DNA of 64,000 bases from Flavobacteriaceae bacterium NBU2977. Lineage in GTDB: Bacteria > Bacteroidota > Bacteroidia > Flavobacteriales > Flavobacteriaceae. A program made the translations under genes and the position numbers. The stretch is from assembly GCA_019931105.1 (NCBI GenBank), contig JAIOUW010000002.1, positions 496,001-560,000 on the forward strand, in the 5' to 3' direction. The notes beneath the pieces were generated by a model. It worked only from the letters and a program-made list of their open reading frames with translations, ran no database searches and had not been told where the DNA came from. This document shows, one piece after another, positions 45,665 to 61,232 of the stretch; within the stretch, counting starts at the first letter, position 1, and the number at the start of each line of letters is the position of its first letter.

Positions 45665-46486
45665 ATGAAAAAAATATTTATTGCTCTAGTAGCGGTTAAC
45701 CTCACTTTTTTTGCATGCAAGGAAAAAACCAAATCTGGGCCGTTTATCGATTCGGATATAGAAAATGCTGTTACATCGCCAGAATCTTTTAAGGTATTAG
45801 AGTTGTCAACCAAAGAAAATTTGAAAATCGTACCCATCGAGCACGCCACCGTCGTTCTTGAATGGAAAGATTTGACCATATATGTCGATCCCGTAGGCGG
45901 CGCGGAAGCTTTTGAGGGCCAAAAAGCCCCCGACCTTATTTTGATCACCGACATTCACGGGGATCATTTAAACGTGGAGACCCTTCAGGCACTTGATACC
46001 GAAAAAGCCAAAATAATCATGCCCCAGGCCGTGGCGGACAAGATGCCCGATGCTTTTGTACCCCAAATCGATATTCTGAACAATGGCGATTCGAAAGAAC
46101 GTTACGGAATCGTGGTAGAGGCCGTTCCCATGTATAACCTTAGGGAAGAAGCCTTGAAATTCCACGAAAAAGGGCGCGGCAATGGCTACATACTTAACCT
46201 CGGCGATCAACGCATCTATTTTTCGGGCGATACCGAAGATATACCCGAAATGAGGGCACTTGAAAATATCGATAAGGCGTTTATCTGTATGAATCTGCCC
46301 TACACAATGACCGAAGAAAGTGCGGCCGACGCCGTATTGGATTTCAAACCGAAACAAGTCTATCCCTACCATTACAGGGGCAACCCAGACGTAAGCGATG
46401 TTTCAAAGTTTAAAGAAATCGTCAATGCAGGAAATCCTGATATTGAGGTGATACAACTCGATTGGTATCCAAAAGATGACTTCTAG
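45665..46486 (+). CDS. MBL-fold metallo-hydrolase lipoprotein (UlaG-like)
   Basis: The 273-residue product has a lipoprotein signal (IALVAVNLTFFACKE, Cys near residue 18). The metal site is visible in LITDIHGDHLN, in YFSGDTED and in the C-terminal YPYHYRG. The early HATVVLEWKDLTIYVDPVGG is typical of the UlaG/UPF0173 branch. It should hydrolyse a lactone or phosphodiester-like substrate in the periplasm; the exact substrate is unknown. Its TAG stop interlocks with the ettA stop over 4 nt (46483-46486). Confidence 0.88.
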   Translation: MKKIFIALVAVNLTFFACKEKTKSGPFIDSDIENAVTSPESFKVLELSTKENLKIVPIEHATVVLEWKDLTIYVDPVGGAEAFEGQKAPDLILITDIHGDHLNVETLQALDTEKAKIIMPQAVADKMPDAFVPQIDILNNGDSKERYGIVVEAVPMYNLREEALKFHEKGRGNGYILNLGDQRIYFSGDTEDIPEMRALENIDKAFICMNLPYTMTEESAADAVLDFKPKQVYPYHYRGNPDVSDVSKFKEIVNAGNPDIEVIQLDWYPKDDF

Positions 46487-48174
46487 CGCACCAACTTCTT
46501 GTATTTCAAACGTTTAGGAATCGTATCGGCTCCAAGGCGTTTTCTCCTATTTTCCTCATAATCGGAAAAAGAGCCTTCGAAGAAATACACTTGGGAGTCA
46601 CCCTCGAATGCCAAAATATGGGTACATATACGATCCAAGAACCAACGGTCGTGGGAGATGACCACCGCACAGCCGGCAAAATTCTCAAGACCTTCTTCAA
46701 GGGCCCGTAATGTATTTACATCAAGATCGTTGGTAGGTTCGTCCAAGAGCAATACGTTGCCCTCTTCCTTCAAGGTCATTGCCAGATGTAGCCTATTGCG
46801 CTCACCTCCTGACAGCATATTGACTTTTTTGTTCTGCTCGCTACCCGAAAAATTAAAGCGGCTCAAATAGGCACGCGAATTGACCTGCCTGCCACCCATC
46901 ATTACCAATTCTTGTTCATCGCTGAAGTTTTGCCATATCGTCTTGTCGGGATCGATGTTCGAATGGCTTTGGTCGACATAGGCTATTTTCGCCGTGTCTC
47001 CCACCTCAAATTCTCCCTTATCAGGGGTCTCCTCCCCCATTATCATTCGAAATATAGTGGTCTTACCTGCGCCGTTAGGGCCTATGATCCCGACAATACC
47101 CGCCTGTGGTAATTTGAAATTCAAATCTTCGTACAACAACTTATCACCGTAGGCCTTGGCTACCCCTTTCGCTTCGATCACGTTCGTACCCAATCGCGGT
47201 CCGTTCGGAATGTAGATTTCAAGTTTTTCATCAAGCTGCTTCTGGTCCTGGCTCATGAGCTTGTCATAATTCTTCAAGCGTGCCTTTTGCTTGGTCTGGC
47301 GCCCTTTGGCGCCCTGACGTACCCATTCAAGCTCACGTTCCAAGGTCTTTTGTCTTTTAGAGGCGGACTTGCTCTCCTGGGCCAATCGCTTTGATTTTTG
47401 ATCCAACCAGCTTGAATAGTTCCCTTTCCATGGAATACCTTCTCCCCTATCAAGTTCAAGGATCCATCCGGCCACGTTATCCAAAAAATAGCGGTCGTGA
47501 GTAACCGCGATTACCGTTCCTTTATATTGCGCCAAATGGTGTTCCAACCAATGCACGGACTCTGCATCCAAATGGTTGGTCGGCTCATCGAGCAATAAAA
47601 TCTGTGGTTCTTGCAAAAGCAATCTGCACAATGCCACCCTCCTTCTTTCACCCCCCGAAAGAACGCCTATTTTTTTATCGGCTTCGGGAGTACGCAGCGC
47701 ATCCATGGCTATTTCGAGCTTTGTATCAAGCTCCCATGCATTCGCGGCATCGATCTTGTCCTGCAACTCGGCCTGTTTGTCCATGAGCATTTGCATCTTA
47801 TCGGCATCCTCATAGACTTCGGGCAACCCGAACATGTCATTGATCTTGTTATACTCATCGAGAATGGCGACGGTTTCTGAAACACCCTCGCGAACGACCT
47901 CGATCACGGTTTTGGTTTCGTCCAGTTGTGGCTCCTGCTCCAAATAGCCTACTTGATATCCTGGAGAAAAAACCACATCGCCCTGATAATTTTTATCAAC
48001 GCCCGCAATGATTTTCAATAGTGTCGATTTACCGGAACCATTTAGCCCCAGGATACCGATTTTAGCCCCGTAGAAAAAGCTCAGATAAATATTCTTTAGT
48101 ACGGGAGTATTGGCATTTTTATAGGTTTTGGTAACCCCGGCCATTGAGAAGATTACCTTCTTGTCGTCGCTCAT
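46483..48174 (-). CDS. ettA: Energy-dependent translational throttle protein EttA
   Basis: The 563-residue ABC-F protein binds the ribosomal E site and adjusts translation to the ATP/ADP ratio. The start SDDKKVIFSMAGVTKTY and the two ATPase modules (Walker A GLNGSGKST near residue 43, GPNGAGKTT near 355; signatures LSGGERRR and LSGGERNR) are as in E. coli EttA. The arm region between Walker A and signature is long, as required for EttA. The linker KRQKTLERELEWVRQGAKGR is also characteristic. Convergent stop overlap with the metallo-hydrolase. Confidence 0.95.
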   Translation of the reverse strand: MSDDKKVIFSMAGVTKTYKNANTPVLKNIYLSFFYGAKIGILGLNGSGKSTLLKIIAGVDKNYQGDVVFSPGYQVGYLEQEPQLDETKTVIEVVREGVSETVAILDEYNKINDMFGLPEVYEDADKMQMLMDKQAELQDKIDAANAWELDTKLEIAMDALRTPEADKKIGVLSGGERRRVALCRLLLQEPQILLLDEPTNHLDAESVHWLEHHLAQYKGTVIAVTHDRYFLDNVAGWILELDRGEGIPWKGNYSSWLDQKSKRLAQESKSASKRQKTLERELEWVRQGAKGRQTKQKARLKNYDKLMSQDQKQLDEKLEIYIPNGPRLGTNVIEAKGVAKAYGDKLLYEDLNFKLPQAGIVGIIGPNGAGKTTIFRMIMGEETPDKGEFEVGDTAKIAYVDQSHSNIDPDKTIWQNFSDEQELVMMGGRQVNSRAYLSRFNFSGSEQNKKVNMLSGGERNRLHLAMTLKEEGNVLLLDEPTNDLDVNTLRALEEGLENFAGCAVVISHDRWFLDRICTHILAFEGDSQVYFFEGSFSDYEENRRKRLGADTIPKRLKYKKLVR

Positions 48175-48210
48175 TTTCTTATTTTACTAGGTTGGGAAGT
48201 TTTTGTTGTT

Positions 48211-48393
48211 TCAAACCCTGCCCTTCAAGGCATTGAATACCCATGCTATGGCAAAAAAACCGATTCCGACGGAGGCAAAACCCCAGCCAGCTACTTCGTT
48301 ATACCGAAATGCCCCAAGTGCAATGAGGCCGAGACCCACGATTATCATTATATATGTAGCCCAAGCAAGTACGGTATTTTTGTTCATTCCCAT
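48211..48393 (-). CDS. CAL67264 family small membrane protein
   Basis: The 60-residue product starts MGMNKNTVLAWATYIMIIVG, with two membrane helices (VLAWATYIMIIVGLGLIALG and GWGFASVGIGFFAIAWVFNAL) and a short C-terminal ALKGRV. From memory this is the flavobacterial CAL67264 membrane family. A ten-residue longer N-terminus (MGLLQTNLNT) is possible but adds nothing typical. It lies 36 nt after ettA on the same strand and may be its upstream partner in the operon. Function unknown. Confidence 0.8.
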   Translation of the reverse strand: MGMNKNTVLAWATYIMIIVGLGLIALGAFRYNEVAGWGFASVGIGFFAIAWVFNALKGRV

Positions 48394-48524
48394 GGTATTC
48401 AGATTGGTTTGTAGTAACCCCAAATATCGGAATTTTTACGCGATAATCGAGATTTAAATGCTGAGATCGTACTAAAAAGGATTGACAGGCATGGTAAGAC
48501 ACCCTGAAGTCGTTCAATGACGAA

Positions 48525-49505
48525 TCAGGTATCGAATGGAAACGTAATACCTGTTTTCGAACGAACGGCATCTAGTAGGTCGATAAGGTCCAGACTGTTT
48601 TGATGGTTCCATAGGTCACTTTGTAGTCCGCCATTTCGAATGCATTTATGGACCTCGATAATTTCGTGGGAATACCCTTTTCCTATCTTGGGGACATCAT
48701 AACACTTGATTTCGTCGTTTTTTTCGATTGAATATGATTCCGCTTCATGCCAACATGGGTTGATATAAAGAGTACCCTTGCTTCCTGAAAGTTCGGCCCG
48801 CATGGATGATTTTGAAGTGAATCCGCTGTAAAGCACGGCTTGCGCGTTTTTGTATTCAAAAATAATGGAGGTCTGAATCTCGGCCCCGGTGGAATGAAAT
48901 TTGGAGCTTGCCTGTATTTTTTCGGGATTGCCCAACATCAAATAAGATAAAAAAACCGGATATATACCAATATCCAGCAATGATCCCCCCGCCAGTTCAG
49001 GATTCAAGACCCTTCCCTTTTCATCTCGATCCATGGCATAAAAGGCAAAATCGGCATTCAAATAACCTAGAGTACCAATTTGTCCTTCATCGATTAGTTT
49101 TTTGACTTCGATTATGGTAGGATTGAATCGGCTCCATAAGGCTTCCATTAAAAAGACATTGTTCTCGGTAGCCGTTTTTATCATGCGACGCACCTCTGCC
49201 CCATTAACGCCCATAGGTTTTTCACAAAGTACATGCTTGCCCTTCTCCATGGCCTTGATGGCCCATTCGGCATGGCCGGTATGAGGGGTAGCGATATAAA
49301 TGACATCTACATTGTTCGAATCGAGCAATTCTTCATAAGAGCCGAAATATTCCGATGCACCAAACGCTTGTGCAAAGGTTTTGGCCCTTTCGATATCTCG
49401 GGATCCAACGGCCGTCAATTCACCCCATTCTACCAATTTTAAATCCTTTGCAAAACTATGCGCTATCTTTCCCGGGCCTAAAATTCCCCATCTGATACTA
49501 TCCAT
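48525..49505 (-). CDS. Gfo/Idh/MocA family oxidoreductase
   Basis: The 326-residue product has an N-terminal NAD(P)-binding Rossmann domain: WGILGPGKIAHSFAKDL, and VDVIYIATPHTGHAEWAIKAM, then GKHVLCEKPMGVN with the catalytic Lys/Pro segment (EKP). The C-terminal half is the substrate domain (GGSLLDIGIYPVFLSYLMLG). It oxidises or reduces a sugar or sugar alcohol; the substrate is unknown. ATG at 49505 is used; the longer frame starts at a GTG. A TACATTTG box on the minus strand (49532-49525) is a possible -7 element. It is divergent from the carboxylase gene. Confidence 0.93.
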   Translation of the reverse strand: MDSIRWGILGPGKIAHSFAKDLKLVEWGELTAVGSRDIERAKTFAQAFGASEYFGSYEELLDSNNVDVIYIATPHTGHAEWAIKAMEKGKHVLCEKPMGVNGAEVRRMIKTATENNVFLMEALWSRFNPTIIEVKKLIDEGQIGTLGYLNADFAFYAMDRDEKGRVLNPELAGGSLLDIGIYPVFLSYLMLGNPEKIQASSKFHSTGAEIQTSIIFEYKNAQAVLYSGFTSKSSMRAELSGSKGTLYINPCWHEAESYSIEKNDEIKCYDVPKIGKGYSHEIIEVHKCIRNGGLQSDLWNHQNSLDLIDLLDAVRSKTGITFPFDT

Positions 49506-49581
49506 AAATACCGTCACCTTTGCCCAAATGTAATCAAATTTTACTCCTTATCTTTAGCAACATCAATGAAAGCATACCGTA

Positions 49582-51210
49582 ATGGATATCAAATTCAACA
49601 AGAACGAAGACCACAATAAACTACAGCTGTCGGAGCTGAACAAAAGACTTGCAAAAGTTAAAATGGGCGGAGGAAAAACCCGTATTGAAAAACAACATGC
49701 CCAAGGTAAACTGACAGCTCGTGAAAGAATCGACTACTTATTGGACGATGGAAGCGACCGAATCGAAATCGGTGCTTTGGTGGGCGAAGGTATGTACGAA
49801 GACCATGGTGGTTGCCCTTCTGGCGGTGTGGTCGTCAAAATCGGTTATGTTTCTGGGAAGCAATGTATCGTTGTAGCCAATGACGCGACGGTCAAAGCCG
49901 GAGCCTGGTTTCCTATAACCGCAAAGAAAAATCTACGGGCCCAGGAAATCGCCATCGAAAACCGACTTCCGATAATTTATTTAGTGGATAGTGCGGGCGT
50001 ATATCTACCCATGCAAGATGAAATCTTTCCTGACAAAGAACATTTTGGGCGAATTTTTCGAAACAATGCCATAATGAGCAGTATGGGAATTACCCAGATC
50101 GCCGCCGTCATGGGAAGCTGTGTTGCAGGTGGGGCCTATCTACCCATCATGAGTGATGAGGCGTTGATCGTCGATAAGACCGGAAGCATTTTTTTGGCCG
50201 GAAGCTACCTCGTCAAAGCTGCCATAGGCGAGAACATAGATAACGAAACCCTGGGTGGTGCAACAACGCATAGTGAAATCAGTGGAGTAACCGACTACAA
50301 GGCCAAAGATGACGAAGATGCTCTGGATACCATAAAAAATATCGTCGGTAAAATCGGTGATTTTGACAAAGCAGGTTACAATCGAACAAAATCACAAAAA
50401 CCAATAGAGAATCCAAAAGATGTTTATGGAATTCTCCCCGCTTCAAGAACGGACCAATACGATATGTTGGAAATCATAAAACGCTTGGTCGACAATTCTG
50501 ATTTCGAAGAATACAAAAAAGGATATGGAAAAACCATTTTAACGGGCTATGCCCGCATCGATGGCTGGGCGGTCGGTATTGTCGCCAATCAGCGCAAAGT
50601 CGTGAAGACCACCAAGGGCGAAATGCAGTTCGGAGGGGTCATATATTCCGATTCGGCGGACAAGGCTACCCGTTTCATCGCCAACTGCAACCAAAAGAAG
50701 ATTCCGTTGGTATTTCTGCAGGATGTTACTGGCTTTATGGTCGGCAGTAAAAGCGAGCATGGTGGAATCATCAAAGACGGTGCGAAAATGGTCAATGCCG
50801 TAAGTAATTCGGTCGTACCCAAATTTACGGTGGTAATCGGTAACAGTTACGGTGCAGGAAACTATGCCATGTGCGGCAAGGCCTATGACCCTCGTTTGAT
50901 AATGGCTTGGCCAAGTGCCGAACTTGCGGTTATGAGTGGTAACTCGGCGGCCAAGGTATTGCTACAGATCGAAAAATCATCCTTAAAAAAGAAAGGTGAG
51001 GCAATAACGGAAAAAAAGGAAAAAGAACTTTATGATCAGATCAAGGCCCGGTACGACAACCAAATTTCGCCTTATTATGCAGCTTCCCGACTTTGGACCG
51101 ACGCCATTATCGATCCTTTAGATACCCGTAAATGGATATCAATGGGCATCGCGGCGGCCAATAATGCCCCCATTGACAAACCCTTTAATATGGGGGTTCT
51201 ACAGGTTTAA
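49582..51210 (+). CDS. Acyl-CoA carboxylase beta subunit (methylcrotonyl/propionyl type)
   Basis: The 542-residue carboxyltransferase moves CO2 from biotin to an acyl-CoA. The N-terminal half has RTARERID-like KLTARERIDYLL, GGCPSGGVVVKIGYVSGK and VDSAGVYLPMQDEIFPDKEHFGRIF. The next block AAVMGSCVAGGAYLPIMSDE with SIFLAGSYLVKAAIGE is closest to methylcrotonoyl-CoA carboxylase beta. The C-terminal half has LVFLQDVTGFMVG and NSYGAGNYAMCGKAYDPR. No biotin-carboxylase subunit is nearby, so its partner lies elsewhere. TATCTTTA at 49550-49557 may be its -7 box. Convergent stop overlap (4 nt) with the gene at 51207. Confidence 0.93.
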   Translation: MDIKFNKNEDHNKLQLSELNKRLAKVKMGGGKTRIEKQHAQGKLTARERIDYLLDDGSDRIEIGALVGEGMYEDHGGCPSGGVVVKIGYVSGKQCIVVANDATVKAGAWFPITAKKNLRAQEIAIENRLPIIYLVDSAGVYLPMQDEIFPDKEHFGRIFRNNAIMSSMGITQIAAVMGSCVAGGAYLPIMSDEALIVDKTGSIFLAGSYLVKAAIGENIDNETLGGATTHSEISGVTDYKAKDDEDALDTIKNIVGKIGDFDKAGYNRTKSQKPIENPKDVYGILPASRTDQYDMLEIIKRLVDNSDFEEYKKGYGKTILTGYARIDGWAVGIVANQRKVVKTTKGEMQFGGVIYSDSADKATRFIANCNQKKIPLVFLQDVTGFMVGSKSEHGGIIKDGAKMVNAVSNSVVPKFTVVIGNSYGAGNYAMCGKAYDPRLIMAWPSAELAVMSGNSAAKVLLQIEKSSLKKKGEAITEKKEKELYDQIKARYDNQISPYYAASRLWTDAIIDPLDTRKWISMGIAAANNAPIDKPFNMGVLQV

Positions 51211-53030
51211 AAGGATATCTTCTTGCCCGATGTATCGATAGTGGCCAAGTGAAAACTCGATTGCAAATCGTACAACCTAAACACCTTGGACTCGCTTTTT
51301 TGCGTAGGGAGTCCATAATCCAAAAAAGTAGTAACCTTCAAGACTGCGGGCACCTTGTTTTCTTCGTACCGATAATTCAAGTTAAGCTTCCAATCACCTT
51401 CCAAGGAATCGTCCAAAAAAAACTGCTTGCTAGAATATCCCTTTTTTTGTGCCATTTCCATTTCTGGCGTCGATTTGTCATAATTGTTCCAAAGTACAAA
51501 AAGGTCTTCGGGGTCGGTCAATTGTATTTCGAATTCAAAATCGTCTAGATTCCATTCCAATAAAACCCTTGTCGTCGCGACTTCGAGTTCTTTGTTAATC
51601 TGATTTTCCGATATATCTAGTTCTTTACGTCTTTGCCTTAGAATATTGTTCGTCTCTACCGAAATGAGCAAATCGGCACCAAAGGGGTCAAAAGCAATGG
51701 AATCGAATAACACAATGGCCTTTTCGTACCTCGCGTACCTCAAAAGGGCTTTCGTATAATCGCCCACTTCATTTTGAGCATTGGCGACGTCTCGATTCGA
51801 TTGGGCCGCACTAGACCTAAGTTTGAGTATGTCGAGATAGTGCTGAAGGGCCAGCCCATACTGTCCCATTTCTTCCAAAAAATATGCGATTGCCTTTCTT
51901 ACGGCAACATTGTCAGCGAAACTTTGCTTCGCCATTTCAAGGATGGCAATTGCATTTGTTTCGTCTTGCCATCGTTTTAAAAAATATCTGGAGGTCTCAA
52001 AAAAGTAAACCGGTGAGTCCAAATGGTTTTCCTTGTCTTCATTAAAAATTGTCCATGCCTTTTGCCTCGATTTCGCTTCTTCATATTTCTCGATAAAATC
52101 AAACTTTTTTGGCGTATACCTTGTCGGTTTGTTGGATTCTTTAGTTAAACTATCTACCAAACCCCTGTTATTATAGACTCTTTCTACATCAAGCTCGTCA
52201 ATACGCGTCTTTTCTTTTGTATTGATAATGATTACCCCTCCTGCCCCTTGCGGGCCGTATTTGAAAGCCCCATTTCTTTTCATCACGGCTATACGGTCAA
52301 TTTCGCTAGGAATCAACCACGTAGGAGTCTGCTCATATATTATACCATCTACATCGAAAATTGCAGCTGGCGGCGGGCTTTCGTTATTAATAGAACCGGG
52401 GTTCCAAAGATAAACTCTTGGCGGAGTTGTATCCCTGTGAACGACCATATTCGGAAAATGAGATCGTAATGAGGTCAAAAAATCATTACCTGTCGGAAGT
52501 ATCTGATCACCGTCAACTATCCGCATTGAAAATGAAGTGCGATCTTTATCCAAAATGCCCCTCGAAGTCTTTATCAAATTCTTATTGGTAGGGTATTCGG
52601 CCAGTAGGTCTTTTTGGGTCTTTACCCTCCTTTTCTTCACTTGTACCTCGTCCAATTCTTGAACGTTTATGAACAATTGCACATTCAAGCGGTCTATATG
52701 ATCCTCAATGGCAATCTGTTTCGTATGCATACCCACATGTGAAAAAACAAGTGTATCAGCCACTTTTACGTCAATCTCATAAAAACCCCTCTTATCTGTC
52801 TGGGCACCCTCTAAAGTTCCCTTGAGCGTAATGGAGACACCTTCCAAAGGCCGATTTTCATAATCGGTAACGGTTCCGCTTAGGCTTATGGTCGATTCTT
52901 GTGCCGAAAGTGAAAAGCTAATGATGGCAAGGGACAGGAAAATGGTTTTTTTTAAGCCTAAAATATATCCTAGGTCAAAAAATGGGGCTTTGCCGAACAC
53001 CAGAAATAGTTCTCTATCGAAATACCCCAT
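51207..53030 (-). CDS. Barrel-less TonB-plug/TPR/DUF2135-like protein, paralogue 3
   Basis: The frame gives 607 residues. Reading order: hydrophobic export segment (IFLSLAIISFSLSAQ), CarboxypepD_reg-like sandwich (ISLSGTVTDYENRPLEGVSI to IAIEDHIDRLNVQLFINVQELDEVQVK), a Lys-rich linker, a plug-like domain (DGDQILPTGNDFLTSLRSHFP ... GAGGVIIINTKEKT), two to three TPR-like helices (LQHYLDILKLRSSAAQSNRDVANAQ) and a C-terminal beta domain (VLLEWNLDDFEFEIQLTDPEDL) like DUF2135. There is no barrel. The first ATG (53030) leaves 28 residues before the export segment, and no nearer start codon (ATG, GTG or TTG) exists, so the start is uncertain. It is last of a three-gene tandem array. Confidence 0.8.
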   Translation of the reverse strand: MGYFDRELFLVFGKAPFFDLGYILGLKKTIFLSLAIISFSLSAQESTISLSGTVTDYENRPLEGVSITLKGTLEGAQTDKRGFYEIDVKVADTLVFSHVGMHTKQIAIEDHIDRLNVQLFINVQELDEVQVKKRRVKTQKDLLAEYPTNKNLIKTSRGILDKDRTSFSMRIVDGDQILPTGNDFLTSLRSHFPNMVVHRDTTPPRVYLWNPGSINNESPPPAAIFDVDGIIYEQTPTWLIPSEIDRIAVMKRNGAFKYGPQGAGGVIIINTKEKTRIDELDVERVYNNRGLVDSLTKESNKPTRYTPKKFDFIEKYEEAKSRQKAWTIFNEDKENHLDSPVYFFETSRYFLKRWQDETNAIAILEMAKQSFADNVAVRKAIAYFLEEMGQYGLALQHYLDILKLRSSAAQSNRDVANAQNEVGDYTKALLRYARYEKAIVLFDSIAFDPFGADLLISVETNNILRQRRKELDISENQINKELEVATTRVLLEWNLDDFEFEIQLTDPEDLFVLWNNYDKSTPEMEMAQKKGYSSKQFFLDDSLEGDWKLNLNYRYEENKVPAVLKVTTFLDYGLPTQKSESKVFRLYDLQSSFHLATIDTSGKKISF

Positions 53031-53065
53031 ACCATCAATCTTTTGATAAATATCGCCGTTTAAAC

Positions 53066-54817
53066 TTAATTTCGAACCAATCGATTCTGGACCACAAGTT
53101 TTAGAAATTCTATATTAATATTCTTTTCCACCAATGGCAATAGCGTCACTTTTTTGGTCTGTGATGGGCGGCCATAGTCATTATAGGTGGTTGCTTTGAT
53201 GTAGGTAGGATTGAAACCCTTATTGCCAAAATACGTAATATTGATTCTCCAAACTCCCGGCATATTCTCGTCTATAAAAAATTGTTCGCAACTATACCCT
53301 TTGAGCTTTTCGTCTTTGATCATGTCTGCACTGTTCTGCAGTGTATGGCTCGATATAAAATAATGATTTTCGGGATTGACAAACTGCAAATCAAATTCGG
53401 CCTCACTATTGTTCCATTCAAAAAGTACCCTTGTGCCACCTATATCGGCATCTAATATATCGCCATTAGAAATCGACATCTCGTCACCTTTTTGTGCAAT
53501 GAGATTGGTTGATTCAACCTCTATTATACCGTCAATACCTTCAAAGTCACTGGTCGTTGTATCCAATTTTCGCAATTGTTCGTATCGTGCGTATAGTGAC
53601 AATGCCTTTTTATAGAATCCGTTTTCGGTATAACTATTGGCAAGGTCACGATACGACTGTGCGTATCGCGGTCTTTGCTTGAAAATAGCAATATAGATGT
53701 CCATAGCATCTTTTAATTGTCCCCTTTCTTCATAGGTATAGGCCAATGCCTTTAAAACATTCGGGTTATCTGCAAACAACTCCTTCATTTCGTTCAATAT
53801 TCCAAGAGATCTCTCAGTATTTTTCCATTTGTTCAAAAAGACATTGGACGACTCTATAAAAAAATAGGCCGAATTACCGAACAACTTCTTCTGTTCTTCA
53901 TAGATCCGAAATGCATCATCGGCCGAATCAGCCGAATCGATTAAGCCGATATAGTTGGGCGGTTCTCTGGTGAGTTTGCTGACACCGGTCTTTTCGTCAA
54001 AAATATTGTTGCGAAGTTTTGCATGATCGTACACTTTGTTCGTGCCCTCTTCGCGAATCACATTTCCTCTTTTGGTATTAATGATTATTACCCCTCCTGC
54101 AGCAATCTGCCCATATCTTATGACGCCCGCCAGGCCAGGTATGGTGGCTACGCGATCAATATTGTCGATTTGCAAAAAATCAGGTGCCGTTTCGAAAATG
54201 GTACCGTCGACCTCATAGATAACCGGTCTCGGATTATTAGCAGAACTTCTGCCACGCATATAGATTACCCTTTGGGAACTTCCATTGACTCCATCTGCCG
54301 TTGCCACGGTAATCCCCGGAATTTTTCCCTGTAATGCCGTGATCAAGTCTATGGCACTGGGATTTAAATCGGCGCCATCGATGCTAGACATGGAGTATCC
54401 TGTCTTTGTCGCATCGATATAACCATAAGCCGTTCTAAAGATATTCTTATTTGAGGCATAATCAAGCATCAAGCCGCGCTGTCCTTCTGGCTTCTTTTGC
54501 TGCACAACAACTTCATCAAGTTCTTCAACTTTTGGTACCATATCAATATTGAGGATCGAGGTAACATCCTCAACGATGATTTCAACCGTGTGCATACCAA
54601 TGTAGCTGAAGACCAGAACATCCCTAGGTCTTGCCGTTATTTCGTATCGGCCCTTCGAGTCGGTTTGAACCCCTTCTCCAAGGCCCTTTATTGCAATGTT
54701 GGCATTGGCCAAAGGGTAGCCCATGTCGGACACTACACCACTTATCATGTTGACCTTGTCTTGGGAAACTGCAAAAAAACCAATGAATAATAAGAAAAAA
54801 GTAACTGATAGTCTCAT
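53066..54817 (-). CDS. Barrel-less TonB-plug/TPR/DUF2135-like protein, paralogue 2
   Basis: The 583-residue product has a clean signal peptide (MRLSVTFFLLFIGFFAVSQ). A CarboxypepD_reg domain follows (ISGVVSDMGYPLANANIAIKG ... VLVFSYIGMHTVEIIVEDV, residues 23-95). The plug domain is the most canonical of the three (AIDLITALQGKIPGIT, VIYMRGRSS, PVIYEVDGTIFE, IDRVATI, GGVIIINTKRG, residues about 150-265). TPR helices follow (VLKALAYTYEERGQLKDAMD, YAQSYRDLANSYTENGFYK), then the C-terminal DUF2135-like sandwich (VLFEWNNSEAEFDLQFVNPEN ... GVWRINITYFGNKGFN). With no barrel it cannot be a pore; it is probably periplasmic and may dock on other receptors. Gaps to both paralogues are under 60 nt. Confidence 0.85.
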   Translation of the reverse strand: MRLSVTFFLLFIGFFAVSQDKVNMISGVVSDMGYPLANANIAIKGLGEGVQTDSKGRYEITARPRDVLVFSYIGMHTVEIIVEDVTSILNIDMVPKVEELDEVVVQQKKPEGQRGLMLDYASNKNIFRTAYGYIDATKTGYSMSSIDGADLNPSAIDLITALQGKIPGITVATADGVNGSSQRVIYMRGRSSANNPRPVIYEVDGTIFETAPDFLQIDNIDRVATIPGLAGVIRYGQIAAGGVIIINTKRGNVIREEGTNKVYDHAKLRNNIFDEKTGVSKLTREPPNYIGLIDSADSADDAFRIYEEQKKLFGNSAYFFIESSNVFLNKWKNTERSLGILNEMKELFADNPNVLKALAYTYEERGQLKDAMDIYIAIFKQRPRYAQSYRDLANSYTENGFYKKALSLYARYEQLRKLDTTTSDFEGIDGIIEVESTNLIAQKGDEMSISNGDILDADIGGTRVLFEWNNSEAEFDLQFVNPENHYFISSHTLQNSADMIKDEKLKGYSCEQFFIDENMPGVWRINITYFGNKGFNPTYIKATTYNDYGRPSQTKKVTLLPLVEKNINIEFLKLVVQNRLVRN

Positions 54818-54871
54818 AAAAACAATTTGTGCTAAATATATTACAAATTAAAATTTTGCGACTATTATAGG

Positions 54872-56674
54872 CTAAATCTTCACCTTATAACAGAAATTTA
54901 CCAAATCAAACCGATTCTTAGTTCGAAACAACTCTTGAAGCGTTCTTAATACTAAAAAGTTCTTGGTTACGTTTCGTAATCCCAGTTTATATACTTTGGT
55001 TTCCTTGCGCTGAGAGACGCGTCCGTAGTCATAATATCTTGTTGCCTTCATATAGGTCGGGGTCAATTTTTTATTACCCAGATACTTTGCATTCACCAAC
55101 CAAGTGCCAGGCAATGATTCATCAATCAGAAATTCTTCGCAAGAGTACCCAAGAAGTTTTTCATCGCGAATACGAGCTGCATTTGCGATCAATGCATGCA
55201 TTGAAGTATAATAGTGATTCTCAGGGTTTACAAACTGTAATTCGAATTCCGCTTCACTATCGTTCCATTCAAAAACCAAACGGGTCCCTTTGAAATCTTC
55301 CTCCAGCACGGACTTTTTGACTTCATTCTTGAAAAGTATGTCTCTTCCGTTCAACGTTATAAGGTTATTAAACTCGCGATCCATGATTTTACCAAATGCC
55401 AGGGTATCTTTTTTCAAGAAATCATGGGTTACCAAATAATTATATCGGGCGTATAATGAAGCTGCACGTTTGGTATCATCAATTTCTCTATAACTATTGG
55501 CCAAGTCAAGGTACGATTGGGCATAATTCGGTCTCTGAATAAAAATTTCTTTATATAGTCTATTGGCACCCTCAAAATCAGCATAGCTTTGAAGATAATA
55601 GGCAAGTGCTTTCAAAGCTACAGGGTTAGATGCGAAAGTTTCGATATAAACTTCTAAGATATGGTCCGAAAATGCCAATTCATCGAATTCTTCGCGAAAA
55701 ATTCGAAACATGTCGAGTGTAAAGAAGTAAGAGTCTCCGTAGATTTTACTTTGATCGAGATATATACTCTTGGCTGTTTCAAAATCTTTGGCACGATGTA
55801 AGGCCTTGATGTAATTTGGTTCATTTCTGATTATGTCATCGCCACTAATGGCATCACCTTGATAAATATTTCCCCGAAGTCTGGCCAAATCGAAAGGGCG
55901 GTTGCCATCTTCGTCAGATCCGTGATTGATGTCACTTGTGTTGATAATCACCATTCCTCCAGGTGCAATATCTGGGCCGTACCGACGCGCTGACTGATCG
56001 GGGGGAATGACCCCTATTCTAACTACCTTTCTAATATCCAACTCCACAGGGGCTTCTTTCCAAATATGTCCATCTAGCTCATAGGCTACAGGAGGCTCAC
56101 CCCGTAATGATCCATAACTTGAGACATAAAGAAAACGCTCCCCTCTGATGGTACGAACCGTGAATCCAGGTAATTGTTCGGCAATGGCATCCAATATATC
56201 ACGGGCCTTTCTATTCAAATTTTTGCCGTCAACGACTCGAAGCTCGTAACCGACCAATTCAGGACTGAGGTATCCGAAATTGGAATTAATGATACTCGAA
56301 TCCCTGTAATATTCTCTAGCAAAATATTGCTGCGTTCTACGCTTGCGTTTTGCAACGGTCACCTCTTTTAGCTCTTCGACCTTCTCGAACATCGTAACGT
56401 TCAAGACCCTAGTGACATCTTCGACCTTTATTTCGATAGGTAGCATACCCATGCGCGAAAAAACCAGAACATCACCCTTTTTGGCCTGAATACTATACTT
56501 TCCTTGATTATCTGAAGTTACACCAATATCGCTCCCTTTGACAATAACATTTACACCCTTGAGAACATCATAATCATCTGATATGGTTCCAAAAATAGTT
56601 TTGGTCAACTCTTGGGAAAACACCGAAGCGCAGAAAAGAAAAAAAACCAGCGAACAGATAGATTTTTTCATCAT
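54872..56674 (-). CDS. Barrel-less TonB-plug/TPR/DUF2135-like protein, paralogue 1
   Basis: The 600-residue product starts at MMKKSICSLVFFLFCASVFSQ (ATG 56674 or 56671). CarboxypepD_reg: IFGTISDDYDVLKGVNVIVKG ... VLVFSRMGMLPIEIKVEDV. A basic linker (KRKRRTQQYF) follows, then a degenerate plug (ARDILDAIAEQLPGFTVRT ... VAYELDGHIWK ... GGMVIINTS), TPR helices (ALKALAYYLQSYADFEGANR, YAQSYLDLANSYREIDDTK) and a DUF2135-like domain (LVFEWNDSEAEFELQFVNPEN ... GTWLVNAKYLGNKKLT). The C-terminal part is very close to paralogue 2, while the plug is more divergent. It is the first gene of the array, 55 nt after the M24 peptidase gene. Confidence 0.85.
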   Translation of the reverse strand: MMKKSICSLVFFLFCASVFSQELTKTIFGTISDDYDVLKGVNVIVKGSDIGVTSDNQGKYSIQAKKGDVLVFSRMGMLPIEIKVEDVTRVLNVTMFEKVEELKEVTVAKRKRRTQQYFAREYYRDSSIINSNFGYLSPELVGYELRVVDGKNLNRKARDILDAIAEQLPGFTVRTIRGERFLYVSSYGSLRGEPPVAYELDGHIWKEAPVELDIRKVVRIGVIPPDQSARRYGPDIAPGGMVIINTSDINHGSDEDGNRPFDLARLRGNIYQGDAISGDDIIRNEPNYIKALHRAKDFETAKSIYLDQSKIYGDSYFFTLDMFRIFREEFDELAFSDHILEVYIETFASNPVALKALAYYLQSYADFEGANRLYKEIFIQRPNYAQSYLDLANSYREIDDTKRAASLYARYNYLVTHDFLKKDTLAFGKIMDREFNNLITLNGRDILFKNEVKKSVLEEDFKGTRLVFEWNDSEAEFELQFVNPENHYYTSMHALIANAARIRDEKLLGYSCEEFLIDESLPGTWLVNAKYLGNKKLTPTYMKATRYYDYGRVSQRKETKVYKLGLRNVTKNFLVLRTLQELFRTKNRFDLVNFCYKVKI

Positions 56675-56729
56675 CGGTGCTTGAAACAGTTGCAATTTAT
56701 GGACTGAACCTAAGCGTCATACGATTGAC

Positions 56730-58073
56730 CTAATTTCCTAATTGTTCTTTTTGCCGTGGTATAAGCAATAATTCAGTTTGTCGGCCATTTACGTATCGAA
56801 AGCCATTTTCGCCGAAGAAACCCGCCTCCTCGAACATAATACGAATATCTCTCTTCCACTCCCGAATGTTAACCGTTGTATTCAGTTCAATGGCATAAAC
56901 CGTATTCGGATTCAACGGATAGTTTTCGCCATCATCTTTCATGACACCACCTTGCGCGTCCCACATGCCAATGGTCGTACCGGCAGAGTGTCCATAGAGC
57001 CCCAATGGATGCGTATATATCGCAGGGCGCAGCCCTGCAGCCTTTGCCTCCCCTAAAGCTTTGGCCAAAATCTCGTTGCCTGTACGGCCTTCGGTCATAT
57101 TCTTGGTCAGAAAATCCTGCACTCGATTTCCATCCTTAAAGGCATCGATCAAAAATTGGGGCGCGGTTTTTTCGTTTGGTTTCAGAACATATGCCAGTTC
57201 TTGACAATCGGTGTTCAACCGTAAATAGGTAATGCCAAAATCACAATGCAGCAAATCGCCGGGCAAGATGACCGTATCGCTCGGCCGACCTGAAAACGAA
57301 TAGAGGTGACCGACCAATTCTTCGCTGCTCCTTTGCACATCTACCGTAGGGTGAAACCATGTTTCCAATCCCAAATCGGTTACTTTCTGGCGCATCCACC
57401 ACTCCACTTCCGAGGTTGTCGTAATACCGGGCGTAATCACTTTTTCAGAAAAAGCCTCCGAAATAACGTCATGTGTTATGTCGACCAGTTGGTTGTAAAT
57501 CACCATTTCACGTGGTGTTCTGGTTTCTATCCATCGTACCGCCAATTGTTCGGCCGAACCTACTTTTGAATGGTATTTTTTTGGCAAATATGCCATGAAT
57601 TCATCATGGTCGGTCTTATCAAGCCCGTCGGCAATGTTGTGGTCCTTTGAATAATTAAGACCTATTTTCTTAGGATTGCGCTCTTCTATCAATTGGATCA
57701 GACGTTTCCATTGATCGGGTTCTTCCTCTTTGTTCCAGGCCGATTTGATATTGTCGCCCACATCGTATCTGGCAACTGCCAATTTCTCGATTGTATTCTT
57801 TACCTTATCACGATAAAAAACCAGGATCGTTCTTCTTCGTGCATTCAACCAAGTAGCTGGCAACATAGTCCTCAACACCGGGTCTTCGTTGTATTCCCTG
57901 GAAATTAGAATCCACATATCGATATCGGTATTGTCCATCAACTTGGGAAGCAAATTATCGAACCGGTCGGCCAAAATCTCATCAACGACCCTTGCCCTTT
58001 CATTTTCGGGAAGTATTTGCTGGGCAGAGACCATCATCGTAAAGGCGAACATTGAAAATATGATTTTCTTCAT
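56730..58073 (-). CDS. Secreted M24 family (Xaa-Pro-type) aminopeptidase
   Basis: The 447-residue product begins with a signal peptide (MKKIIFSMFAFTMMVSAQQ) at the ATG 58073; a longer frame to 58121 has no typical start. Residues about 20-190 are the creatinase-like N-terminal domain. The M24 catalytic domain has the metal ligands: two Asp in CDFGITYLRLNTDCQ, His in THPLGLYGHSAG, Glu in YAIELNTTV and Glu in IMFEEAGFF. All five positions are present, so it should be active as a metallo-peptidase in the periplasm. It lies between menE and the plug/TPR array on the same strand. Confidence 0.92.
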   Translation of the reverse strand: MKKIIFSMFAFTMMVSAQQILPENERARVVDEILADRFDNLLPKLMDNTDIDMWILISREYNEDPVLRTMLPATWLNARRRTILVFYRDKVKNTIEKLAVARYDVGDNIKSAWNKEEEPDQWKRLIQLIEERNPKKIGLNYSKDHNIADGLDKTDHDEFMAYLPKKYHSKVGSAEQLAVRWIETRTPREMVIYNQLVDITHDVISEAFSEKVITPGITTTSEVEWWMRQKVTDLGLETWFHPTVDVQRSSEELVGHLYSFSGRPSDTVILPGDLLHCDFGITYLRLNTDCQELAYVLKPNEKTAPQFLIDAFKDGNRVQDFLTKNMTEGRTGNEILAKALGEAKAAGLRPAIYTHPLGLYGHSAGTTIGMWDAQGGVMKDDGENYPLNPNTVYAIELNTTVNIREWKRDIRIMFEEAGFFGENGFRYVNGRQTELLLIPRQKEQLGN

Positions 58074-58135
58074 ATACTTTATGGATTTTGCATTAAAATA
58101 CGAAAAAACACAATTTGACAAATTTCAAAAATGAA

Positions 58136-59215
58136 TCACATTCTGTCCAAAGCGATCTGGACGGTTTTCTTCCTGGCAATTTTATTGTTGGGCGTAAAAA
58201 CAAACTCGGGCACCCCATATATTTCTTTGGGCACCTCAAACTTTTCAAGGTTCGATAGTTCCTTCAGTTTTCTGTCCAATTTCTGGGTATCATGGACGCC
58301 TTCCACGATCAGCACCAATTTTTCACCTAAATCCTCATCAGGAAGTCCCGTTACGAAAAACGGCTTAGGAATAGTTTCTTCCAATTTGGATTCAATCTGC
58401 TCAGGAAACAATTTTATTCCACCTGAATTAATGATATTATCATAGCGGCCCAACCATTCAAATTCATTTTTCGAGATTAACCGAACTACATCATTGGTCA
58501 TGATAATTTCTTCGCAAATGTGCGGAGCATCTATAATCAAACAACTTCTTTTATCTTGAGATATATTGATTTCCGGAAGGACCTTAAAATGGGCATCGGC
58601 CTCGGTAGATCTGATATTACCCATCTTTCTTGCCGCGATATGGGTTATGGTCTCAGTCATTCCGTATGTTTCGTAAATCTCGCAATCAACACTTCGTAAC
58701 TTCGTTCTTAAAGCATTGGAAATGGGCGCGCCACCTACGATCAACGTTTTGATGTTATTCAGTTTTTTCAGGGAATTAGCGACCTGAATCGGAACCATTG
58801 CACAAAAGTCATAGCGCTTTGAAAGCAATTCGAGCGGATTTGAGGAGGGTTGCAAATAATCAAGTTCAAGACCGAGTACCATTGCCCTTACCAACATCAT
58901 TTTACCCGCTATAAACTCGGCAGGCAAACAATGTAAGGCCTTATCTCCCGGTCTCAATCCAAAGAACTTACTGGTGGCCAGGGCCGAATTGACCATATGC
59001 TGCTTCTTTAATAGAATTTGCTTCGGCTTTCCGGTAGAACCCGATGTTCTGACAGATATATGGGGGGTCTCGTTGCACCAATCGAGCAGAAAATCGCCTA
59101 TCGCATGTTCATAAGGGTCCCCCTCCTTGACGAGACTATACCCGACTTCCTTTAGGCCTTCCTTGGAAAAATGAATGCCGTTGAGTTTAAATTGCGGGTG
59201 AATTTCATTCGTCAT
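58136..59215 (-). CDS. menE: o-Succinylbenzoate-CoA ligase
   Basis: The 359-residue AMP-binding ligase activates o-succinylbenzoate in menaquinone synthesis. Adenylate-forming motifs are ISVRTSGSTGKPKQILL near residue 55 (P-loop), a QV-N region (PIQVANSL), YETYGMTETITHIA near 190 and GRYDNIINSGGIKLFP near 270 with the hinge. The C-terminal catalytic Lys is in NNKIARKK. The protein is shorter than many MenE enzymes because it lacks about 80 N-terminal residues, usual in Bacteroidota. Its start overlaps the CPBP protease stop by 11 nt. Confidence 0.93.
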   Translation of the reverse strand: MTNEIHPQFKLNGIHFSKEGLKEVGYSLVKEGDPYEHAIGDFLLDWCNETPHISVRTSGSTGKPKQILLKKQHMVNSALATSKFFGLRPGDKALHCLPAEFIAGKMMLVRAMVLGLELDYLQPSSNPLELLSKRYDFCAMVPIQVANSLKKLNNIKTLIVGGAPISNALRTKLRSVDCEIYETYGMTETITHIAARKMGNIRSTEADAHFKVLPEINISQDKRSCLIIDAPHICEEIIMTNDVVRLISKNEFEWLGRYDNIINSGGIKLFPEQIESKLEETIPKPFFVTGLPDEDLGEKLVLIVEGVHDTQKLDRKLKELSNLEKFEVPKEIYGVPEFVFTPNNKIARKKTVQIALDRM

Positions 59216-60143
59216 CTATTGGTGCTGTATTTGTCGCTAGAAAAACTTCTTTGGTTTCGACTCTTCCGGTCAACCTATCTTTCCAATCGGTCCATCCATA
59301 TTTACGTGCAAAAACAAATAATAAAATAGGAAATATTACGAATACGGGAACAAAGGCATCGAAGCCCAAAGTTGGCTCGGCCACATATTTATATGCAGCA
59401 TCTACCTGAAAGGCGGTACTGTCGGCCGTAACCAACAAAGCGGTCACCAAATTATTGGACGCATGAAAGCCAAGGGCCAATTCAAGACCTCTATCCATTA
59501 AGGTCATTATTCCCAAAAAGAACCCTGTGCCAATATAATAGACCATGATACCGGCACCCATTTTTTCCACTTCGGGGTTGCCAATATGCATAAGGCCGAA
59601 CAATACCGATGTCACTACCAATGGCACCCATCGATTTTTGGCCATAATACCCAGCCCTTGAATCATATACCCCCTAAAGAGATATTCCTCGAAACTGGTC
59701 TGAATCGGAATCAACAGCAAAGCGATTATCATAAGGTATAGAAAGGGCTCGGGTTTAAAATTGAAAACATAATCTTCTGGAGAAAAATACATGTCTATCG
59801 CGGTCAACGAAATGGTAATCGCCGCCCAAAGACCAAAGGCAAAAAATACTCTTTTCCAATCAATTTTTCTTCTTGACGTGGTCAACGAAGTCAATGTCTG
59901 CTTATGTATGTACTTTACCCAAAGAAACAACAATACGATACCCACCACAAAAGGCACCAACATTTCGACCAAAAAACGATTGGCCCCTTTTTTCGCTATT
60001 TCAGAGGCCATTAGGGCCTCTACATCAATATTCAAAAATTTGATCACGGCATAGTTCAATGCCATCAAACCGATAAATCCCATGGGGATCAAAAAATATT
60101 TCCAAAGGCCCAATTCGCCTTTATAACCCTGTTCTACGTACAT
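59205..60143 (-). CDS. CPBP family intramembrane metalloprotease
   Basis: The 312-residue protein has about seven membrane helices and the CPBP (Abi) signature: FEEYLFRGYMIQGLG near residue 155 with the catalytic Glu pair and Arg, and later FGLMHIGNPE and LGFHASNN with the His. CPBP proteases cut transmembrane proteins or act in prenyl-protein and bacteriocin-immunity contexts. It is embedded between menC and menE with overlaps of 10 and 11 nt, so it is co-translated with the menaquinone genes. Whether it acts on the pathway is unknown. Confidence 0.9.
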   Translation of the reverse strand: MYVEQGYKGELGLWKYFLIPMGFIGLMALNYAVIKFLNIDVEALMASEIAKKGANRFLVEMLVPFVVGIVLLFLWVKYIHKQTLTSLTTSRRKIDWKRVFFAFGLWAAITISLTAIDMYFSPEDYVFNFKPEPFLYLMIIALLLIPIQTSFEEYLFRGYMIQGLGIMAKNRWVPLVVTSVLFGLMHIGNPEVEKMGAGIMVYYIGTGFFLGIMTLMDRGLELALGFHASNNLVTALLVTADSTAFQVDAAYKYVAEPTLGFDAFVPVFVIFPILLFVFARKYGWTDWKDRLTGRVETKEVFLATNTAPIDDE

Positions 60144-61186
60144 AGAATTCTTATTAAGTTAACGTTCCAAGTCTTGTTTTGTCTGTAATATAGGTTCCCT
60201 TTTTCAACTTGCAAAGGGGAATCGAAATTGTTTTTGTAGAGACTGCCGGTGCCCAAACCTTGGGGTATCTTGCTGCCGGCCGTATATGCCCATTGCGCGA
60301 TGGCATTTAGACCAATATTGCTTTCCAAGGCACTCGTGACCCACCATCCTATTCCATATTTATCGGCCAGATCGATCCACTCTTGGCTTCTTTGGCATCC
60401 TCCGATCAAACTTGGTTTCAAAATAATGTGTTGTGGTTTAATGGTTCGTATCAAACTTTCTTTCTGCGTAACATCTGAAACCCCTATCAGTTCTTCATCC
60501 AGAGCGATGGGCAACGGAGTGTTTTTACAAAGTCTTTGCATTGTCTTCCAATCACCCGGTGCAATTGGCTGTTCAACGGAATGTAAATCTAATTCGGCCA
60601 AAACGGAAAGCCTTTCGAAGGCTTCATCGCTCTTAAAAGCACCATTGGCATCGACCCGAAGTTCAATCTGCTCCTTGGAATATTCATTTCTTATCGAACG
60701 CAACAACTTGAGTTCGGTCTCAAAATTCAAGGCACCGATCTTCATCTTGATGCATGTGAAGCCGTCATTTATTTTCCGCTGGATCTGTTCATGCATAAAG
60801 CGTTCATCGCCCATCCAAACCAGTCCGTTAATATTGATAGGCTGCTCCTTTTCAAGAAAATCAGAGGCGAAAAGCCGAAAAGGATGATCCGATGCAAAGG
60901 AGAGAAAAGCCTGTTCGATTCCGAATTGGATACTAGGAAAATCCTGCAGTTGGCTCAAAAGCGATGTTTTGCCCACCGCTATGTTGTCACAAACCCAGGC
61001 AAGACGTTTTTCATAATCAGGCACATCGTCAATACTGAGGCCTTTTAACAATCCGCACTCGCCAATTCCAAACTTCCCTTGTTCCTCCAAGATGATGAAC
61101 CAGGTTTCTTTTTGTAGCATTACCCCGCGAGAAGTACCGCTAGGTCGTTTGAAATCGAGTATATATTTTTTATAGGAAGCCTTCAT
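60134..61186 (-). CDS. menC: o-Succinylbenzoate synthase
   Basis: The 350-residue enolase-superfamily enzyme dehydrates SHCHC to o-succinylbenzoate. Catalytic residues are visible: KMK in CIKMKIGALNFE near residue 145, the Asp in RVDANGAF, Glu in HSVEQPI, Asp in LDEELIG and the final Lys in HIILKPSLIGG. The start at ATG 61186 gives MKASYKKYILDFKRP; a TTG 12 nt upstream is rejected. It is the first gene of the menC-CPBP-menE operon. TAAATTTG (61203-61196, minus) may be the -7 box. It is divergent from the dehydrogenase at 61233. Confidence 0.93.
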   Translation of the reverse strand: MKASYKKYILDFKRPSGTSRGVMLQKETWFIILEEQGKFGIGECGLLKGLSIDDVPDYEKRLAWVCDNIAVGKTSLLSQLQDFPSIQFGIEQAFLSFASDHPFRLFASDFLEKEQPININGLVWMGDERFMHEQIQRKINDGFTCIKMKIGALNFETELKLLRSIRNEYSKEQIELRVDANGAFKSDEAFERLSVLAELDLHSVEQPIAPGDWKTMQRLCKNTPLPIALDEELIGVSDVTQKESLIRTIKPQHIILKPSLIGGCQRSQEWIDLADKYGIGWWVTSALESNIGLNAIAQWAYTAGSKIPQGLGTGSLYKNNFDSPLQVEKGNLYYRQNKTWNVNLIRILCT

Positions 61187-61232
61187 CGATGCGTTCAAAT
61201 TTAACTATATTTTAGGTCTGAAAGCTATATAA

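Follow-up and report, generated by a model that had tools for sequence, protein, structure and literature searches.

Descriptions of the plug usually treat it as one component of a barrel protein. In a 64,000-nucleotide stretch of the genome of Flavobacteriaceae bacterium NBU2977 (contig JAIOUW010000002.1, forward-strand positions 496,001 to 560,000; the whole of this stretch is called the window), we characterized three tandem genes whose products (proteins 1, 2 and 3) carry an export signal and a plug and have no barrel. We lean toward the view that these genes encode exported, soluble periplasmic adaptors of one conserved flavobacterial family, in which the plug would be reused as a binding module.

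The SusC/RagA transporters (TIGR04056; BT1763 and BT3090) share with the window family the order NTE, Ton-box-like motif, plug; the window family differs from them in having no barrel, a longer linker, a plug that has lost a Lys/Arg, and a rear end of TPRs and a DUF2135-like domain. In BT1763, the Ton box (VDEVVV) lies directly after the NTE and was flexible by NMR, and deleting or replacing it impaired growth on levan, as did loss of the SusD lid (PMC7782687). According to a 2025 study, the CTD (the domain type of the NTE) of B. theta transporters has been implicated in TonB contact (PMC12204202). BamP resembles the window family in having a CTD first, then LxEVxV, and a periplasmic location. 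BamP has 249 residues, a three-helix C-terminal domain and a loop into BamA, and it lacks a plug, TPRs and DUF2135. It contacts BamA through its N-terminal domain, which binds POTRA 4 and 5, and through its linker, which enters the barrel (PMC12611786, 9n2d). The VIT-VWA-TPR-DUF2135 proteins of Bacteroidota have a homologous rear end and often match SusC from box to plug in mid-protein; they are longer than the window proteins and mostly carry a VIT domain, which the window proteins do not.

NTE and plug domains in three barrel-less proteins

All three proteins contain an NTE and a plug, and none contains the barrel. Their genes are open, intact minus-strand reading frames lying head to tail with intergenic gaps of 54 and 35 bases, and in each product an export signal is followed by a CarboxypepD_reg domain of the NTE type, an LxEVxV motif and a plug-like region, and then by helical repeats and a beta domain at the C terminus (Table 1). 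An earlier note on this DNA, made from the sequence alone, had read the domains in this way, and that reading was right, with the DUF2135 likeness holding at the family level. The NTE (PF13715) scored above the Pfam cut-off in all three proteins, at E values from 1e-10 to 2e-14, and the plug-like region ends in GGVIIINT in proteins 1 and 2 and in GGMVIINT in protein 3.

The plug was recognized to different degrees in the three proteins. PF07715 scored above its cut-off in protein 2 (32.1 versus 23.9 bits) and gave a partial match under the cut-off in protein 1 (13.3 bits), and Pfam returned no PF07715 match in protein 3. When small subfamily profiles built around proteins 1, 2 and 3 (5, 6 and 6 rows) were compared with the SusC plugs of the same genome, these profile–profile comparisons matched at 97.7, 99.2 and 98.1 %, respectively. 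Searched with a SusC plug profile, 100 of the 106 members of an aligned family set matched at E < 1e-3 and all 106 shuffled copies stayed without a match; the profile gave no match to protein 3; this set comprises the three window proteins and 103 of the 106 members of 560 to 640 residues from 133 matches in other loci.

AlphaFold2 (AF2) models were made for protein 2, from the 106-row family alignment, and for protein 3, from 96 rows. The plug assignment in protein 1 is based on the partial Pfam match and the profile–profile comparison, and that in protein 3 only on the profile–profile comparison and the predicted fold. Mean pLDDT was 86.6 for protein 2 and 86.5 for protein 3, in which the order of elements, plug elements included, is as in protein 2. 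Residues 138 to 250 of the protein 2 model superposed on the plug of BT1763 (6z9a_B; Z 10.2, root-mean-square deviation 2.5, 103 residues aligned), and residues 21 to 100 on the NTE of BT3090 (9hfj; Z 14.4, root-mean-square deviation 1.6, 79 aligned); the NTE of protein 3 matched 9hfj at Z 14.9. A fold lacking plug topology, an outcome raised in the earlier note, did not materialize in either model. Structure-search lists obtained with these predicted models were dominated by TPR matches. With the protein 3 model, Foldseek listed the SusC structure 8aa4_A at E 3.7e-3 and rank 49, and VIA-align 2 gave no SusC row among the 50 matches listed. Neither Pfam nor NCBIfam returned any family of the 22-strand outer-membrane barrel in proteins 1 to 3 at E ≤ 1, and in both AF2 models the chain beyond the plug continues as TPR helices and then a small beta domain.

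The TPRs are weak in Pfam and clear in the models of proteins 2 and 3. DUF2135 (PF09906) reached 13.9 bits in protein 2, against a cut-off of 22, and was not among the Pfam matches of proteins 1 and 3. Two relatives scored over the cut-off (L062:12739, 23.2 bits; L018:17444, 22.1 bits), and 27 of 34 family C-terminal regions scanned matched DUF2135 at E ≤ 0.1 (best 3.1e-8), which agrees with the likeness that the earlier note had proposed. At the family level, these profile matches point to a divergent DUF2135 as the identity of the rear-end beta domain. In the organism's own genome, only proteins 1 to 3 align to protein 2 past residue 268.

We found no lipobox-like pattern in proteins 1 to 3 (one is present in 5 of the 106 family members) and their NCBIfam matches at E ≤ 1 include no type IX sorting tail. 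With both signals missing, a soluble periplasmic form is the simplest location, and we infer a periplasmic location from these sequence features.

Barrel-less plugs are not unique to this family, and its parts are known. In the organism's own genome, where PF07715 was over its cut-off 34 times, protein 2 was accompanied by two other proteins with a plug over cut-off and, like the window family, no barrel family; their other domains are unrelated to those of the window family. One carries its plug C-terminally on an MG2-like protein (L094:918-4655; MG2 itself below cut-off, at 24.3 versus 32.8 bits), and the other carries a short C-terminal plug on an M56-like protein (L096:23-1420). YfbK-type VWA proteins with an NTE-plug (group c16, including L039:6333-8477) are also barrel-less, and 14 of 61 loci have one close to the genome site of the array; they differ from the window family in having VWA and YfbK_C behind the plug and no TPR-DUF2135. 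The L039 protein, with the order NTE-plug-VWA-YfbK_C, matched SusC positions 2 to 208 at 215.6 bits, and 13 other loci hold similar proteins. L049:5899-6588 encodes a 229-residue protein whose only family over its cut-off is a plug domain (43.5 bits); its cluster occurs near the array in four loci. In searches of one open-licence library aimed at the architecture of proteins 1 to 3, none of the papers listed described it, judged by title or abstract; the same library gave no mention of DUF2135 and nothing on "orphan plug" or "barrel-less" plugs. Nor did these searches turn up a description of the family itself, of its usual site and varying copy number, of how its plug evolved or of the plug's residue signature.

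A conserved family at a recurrent genome site

A contig scan in which the best 80 matches were kept yielded 60 family loci (L009 to L068), or 61 with the window. At least 60 loci, from Flavobacteriaceae genera, other Flavobacteriaceae or Bacteroidia, contained at least 133 matches to the rear (C-terminal) end; in the search for the same architecture that the earlier note had suggested, the matches were mostly arrays of one to six genes between the same two housekeeping genes. With the window included, a peptidase M24 gene was present in 45 of the 61 loci and a carboxylase gene in 50, many loci ending at contig ends, and all 45 of these M24 genes were co-directional with the array. Among the 43 loci with both flanks, arrays most often held two genes (19 loci), followed by one (9), three (8) and four (5); one locus had five genes and one had six. 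Some loci are sited elsewhere, with none of the usual neighbors shown (for example, L030, L045 and L060). When genomes were drawn from the organism's own family, at least 87 of 249 had a rear-end match at E ≤ 1e-10, and at least 29 had one at E < 1e-80, in open reading frames of 540 to 645 residues. A draw across the phylum gave a rear-end match in at least 33 of 345 genomes; in the 18 of these outside the organism's own family, every open reading frame among the matches listed had at least 749 residues.

Table 1. Coordinates of the three genes and their usual neighbors in the window
Feature	Position	Strand	Description
Protein 1	51207..53030	minus	607 aa; signal, NTE/CTD ~res 48-125, LDEVQV, plug 164-273, TPR helices, DUF2135-like C-terminal domain
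Protein 2	53066..54817	minus	583 aa; signal 1-20, NTE 23-99, LDEVVV 100-105, family-specific insert ~106-137, plug 138-250
Protein 2, rear half	53066..54817	minus	TPR ~285-455, DUF2135-like domain 456-576
Protein 3	54872..56695	minus	607 aa with TTG start, 600 aa with ATG start at 56674; layout as in the other two, with LKEVTV
Ton-box-like LDEVVV of protein 2 (res 100-105)	54503..54520	minus	Sequence motif
Peptidase M24 gene, just upstream of array	56730..58121	minus	Pfam; usual array neighbor
Carboxyl transferase (acyl-CoA carboxylase) gene, convergent with array	49582..51210	plus	Pfam; usual neighbor at the other end

The nearest locus for orthologues was L009, from a Bacteroidia metagenome-assembled genome, where the protein 1 orthologue (L009:9986-11818) is 84 % identical. 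Against L009, dN/dS was 0.196, 0.064 and 0.10 for proteins 1, 2 and 3 (the dS of protein 3 being saturated, at 2.6) and 0.065 for the neighboring M24 gene; by these ratios, the family is under purifying selection. This bears on whether the three proteins are degenerate receptors, that is, decayed transporters minus the barrel. The plug does fall under the Pfam cut-off in two of the three proteins, but the 106 aligned members of 560 to 640 residues keep the same architecture in open frames, the genes occupy a usual genome site, and dN/dS is well below 1. We therefore set aside the possibility, raised in the earlier note, that the genes are broken remnants of full receptors, and regard decay as hardly credible.

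The earlier note had also proposed that the plug regions had diverged more quickly than the C-terminal domain, and had taken this as a hint of partner specialization. The proposal held in part: family-wide, mean pairwise identity was lower in the plug (0.373) than in the C-terminal domain (0.520), and the plug was the less identical in two of the three pairs of window proteins (26 versus 30 % and 40 versus 56 %). An acceleration specific to the plug was not borne out, since the TPRs diverge as much (0.359; the CTD stands at 0.391), the third window pair is reversed (36 versus 30 %), and identities to the L009 orthologues are mixed (plug versus C-terminal domain: 91 versus 95, 95 versus 89 and 65 versus 67 % for proteins 1 to 3).

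The M24 gene lies 34 bases from protein 3 if translation starts at TTG, or 55 bases if it starts at ATG, and menE-like, Rce1-like and menC-like genes upstream of the M24 gene overlap or almost abut. Given this tight spacing, the array resembles the last part of a single transcription unit. A terminator scan was at the level of shuffled sequence (10 versus 10.0), and promoter-like sites numbered 38 against 24.6 in shuffled sequence (SD 5.6); neither was of clear use here. Rfam gave no matches in positions 46000 to 62000 of the window.

Longer relatives and the origin of the short form

The same rear end aligned to all 40 long relatives fetched (E 5e-55 to 1e-21). These have 935 to 1220 residues, with a VIT domain, a VWA-like part, in many an NTE-plug module, and then TPR-DUF2135. 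At E ≤ 0.01, Pfam found VIT in 36, DUF2135 in 36, CTD in 22, Plug in 16 and VWA_2 in 9 of the 40, and a SusC profile running from box to plug matched 26; VIT and VWA were not among the Pfam matches of proteins 1 to 3 at E ≤ 1. A further class of about 720 to 744 residues (the 730-aa class) has the NTE, plug and rear end behind a VWA-like front, where "VWA-like" is a label, VWA_2 being found in one of five members scanned and below cut-off. In a FastTree tree of 146 rear ends (rows of at least 480 residues) rooted on the long class, the 730-aa class lay between the long and short classes. This intermediate position suggests a stepwise loss of front domains and, with the shared rear end, suggests that the short form derived from VIT-VWA-TPR-DUF2135 proteins by loss of VIT and VWA. 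In this tree, the window proteins fell into three different starred groups, each with an L009 counterpart, and four Croceitalea dokdonensis proteins clustered together, as local duplicates.

The plug itself differs between these classes. We scored Lys/Arg eight residues before the plug's YG; in SusC, nine plugs were scored by script and one by eye, at a one-residue shift. Lys/Arg was present in 10 of 10 SusC plugs, in all 11 located plugs of the 730-aa class (14 rows in total, the motif not being locatable in 3) and in 15 of 16 located in the long class (26 in total, 10 not locatable). By comparison, it was present in 4 of 111 located plugs of the short class (117 in total, 6 not locatable) and in none of 5 located in a fused class described below (9 in total, 4 not locatable); the motif was not locatable in 8 of 11 c16 rows. 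Presumably this Lys/Arg faces the barrel wall in transporters. The distance between motif and plug is 32 residues in 82 of the 106 family members and 10 to 11 in nine of ten SusC proteins. On these alignments, the short class is set apart by the lost Lys/Arg and about 20 extra residues between motif and plug. The earlier note had offered mobile plugs as one role for these proteins: a soluble plug would enter the barrel of another receptor in trans. The retained plug fold is compatible with that role, but the residue kept by ten of ten SusC plugs, whose role we assume as above, has been lost, and a bulky TPR-DUF2135 rear end is fused to the plug. We consider such insertion very improbable, and the other role offered there, a periplasmic scaffold, would fit best.

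A CTD-jellyroll-CTD gene is free-standing in 18 loci (for example, L018:16232-17443), "jellyroll" being a label given from sight. A relative of this protein also occurs as an N-terminal fusion in family members of about 840 to 890 residues. Compared with the free-standing L025 copy, three of eight fused fronts are 83 to 91 % identical, three 45 to 47 % and two only 27 to 32 %, and the starred branches of the tree require no fewer than three label changes for the fused form. Such a fusion suggests that the CTD-jellyroll-CTD protein and the family member work together.

The Ton-box-like motif and possible partners

The motif takes the form LDEVQV in protein 1, LDEVVV in protein 2 and LKEVTV in protein 3, in each case right behind the NTE. 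Across the family, 92 of the 106 members retain LxE[VI]x[VIL], and all 106 retain its Leu. The motif has pLDDT < 50 in both models (residues 102 to 108 in protein 2), as do residues 254 to 266 and the C-terminal end of protein 3. Motif and linker together are 92, 97 and 89 % identical to the L009 orthologues of proteins 1, 2 and 3, which makes them the most conserved part in two of the three orthologue pairs and the second most conserved in the other (92 %). Within the linker, Tyr120 is kept in 101, Thr129 in 97 and Gly132 in 102 of the 106 members.

These features raise the possibility that the proteins are TonB-driven clients without a barrel: TonB would bind LxEVxV and pull on the protein, which would either transmit force to a partner of the TPR/DUF2135 domains or act as a decoy that leaves less TonB for transporters. 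In its sequence and placement the motif agrees with the Ton box tested in BT1763 (PMC7782687), it is widely kept in the family, and the genome encodes four TonB_C proteins. One long relative, L085, also has TonB_C where its kin have the NTE-plug. But the swap occurs in 1 of the 44 long proteins examined, we found no outer-membrane anchor to pull against, and the motif also stands behind plug-less CTDs and in BamP. We judge this alternative unlikely, and we consider it doubtful that soluble periplasmic proteins with a working Ton box, NTE and plug on TPR-DUF2135 scaffolds would let the TonB motor act on periplasmic or outer-membrane partners instead of on a pore. TonB contact of these proteins is plausible and a good hypothesis, not a result; we set aside an argument for contact from the motif alone, since the motif also ends plug-less CTDs, that of BamP included.

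The L085 protein (L085:1244-4480), from a genome of the same family, is a VIT-VWA-TPR-DUF2135 protein in which TonB_C (25.0 bits, cut-off 24.6) replaces the NTE-plug. We rejected the idea that TonB_C regularly takes the place of the plug: among the 44 long proteins it was present only in L085, of the four L085, L086, L089 and L090, phmmer detected it in none of the further 40, and it is absent among the 25 of 28 families listed in the Pfam table of the 40 long proteins.

The resemblance to BamP raises a second possibility, in which the proteins would be BAM-linked accessories: a BamP-like CTD would dock on BamA POTRA, the flexible segment would reach BamA, and the plug and TPRs would aid outer-membrane protein assembly. 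The CTD region of proteins 1 to 3 scored 33.8 to 50.4 bits with the BamP profile NF053692 (positions 1 to 135 of 251), the CTD matched 9n2d_E (38.3 bits; Z 11.0 with protein 3), and BamP has LKEVLV after its own CTD. These scores are far under the 230-bit BamP cut-off, however, the match is confined to the first 114 to 135 of 251 positions, the rear end consists of TPRs and a beta domain rather than three helices, and CTDs are common, with 44 over-cut-off matches in this genome. We regard a role in BAM as quite improbable. On contig C11 of the organism's own genome, L103:785-2312 holds two tandem BamP-like genes, which score 145 and 101 bits against the cut-off of 230; each has LDEVV[VI] following its CTD.

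Under the adaptor interpretation that we favor, a VIT-VWA-TPR-DUF2135 ancestor would have held an NTE-plug module, VIT and VWA would have been lost, and the gene would then have multiplied in place. The plug would no longer gate anything and would serve as a folded module for binding. One docking site would be formed by the NTE together with the flexible LxEVxV peptide, plausibly for TonB, with docking on another envelope machine such as BAM less likely, and the TPR and DUF2135 domains would hold a second partner. Paralogues within an array may serve different partners or conditions.

Several observations weigh against this interpretation. Several long branches meet in the tree, whose labels need 11 changes against a minimum of 4, and two short proteins lie outside their class (L090:701-2374 within the long outgroup and L056:55-1794 within the 730-aa class); these misplacements and label changes indicate that short forms arose repeatedly or that the order of loss was less simple. 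The Ton-box-like motif is broken in 14 of the 106 members. A loose form of it ([LIVM]xE[VIT]x[VIL] at the CTD end) closes 23 of 30 CTDs with an adjacent plug in the organism's own genome and 8 of 15 without one, the eight including protein 3, the first CTD of the MG2-like L094 protein (plug elsewhere) and a possibly spurious MMEVSV. With protein 3 set aside, the motif stands behind 7 of 14 plug-less CTDs, two of them on BamP-like proteins, and the LKEVLV cited above is that of F. johnsoniae BamP. Finally, the neighboring genes are menaquinone-type, peptidase and carboxylase genes, with no partner among them.

The adaptor interpretation would mean that the plug travels as a module onto soluble scaffolds, with a partly traceable history through long VIT, 730-aa and short forms, and that life without a barrel leaves a residue signature in the plug. 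Four TonB C-terminal domains and three of these proteins come from one genome, which makes the question of TonB directly testable. If the conserved Ton-box-like peptide does bind TonB, transporters would not be the only clients of the Ton motor; if it does not, the family would show uses of a plug and an NTE without TonB.

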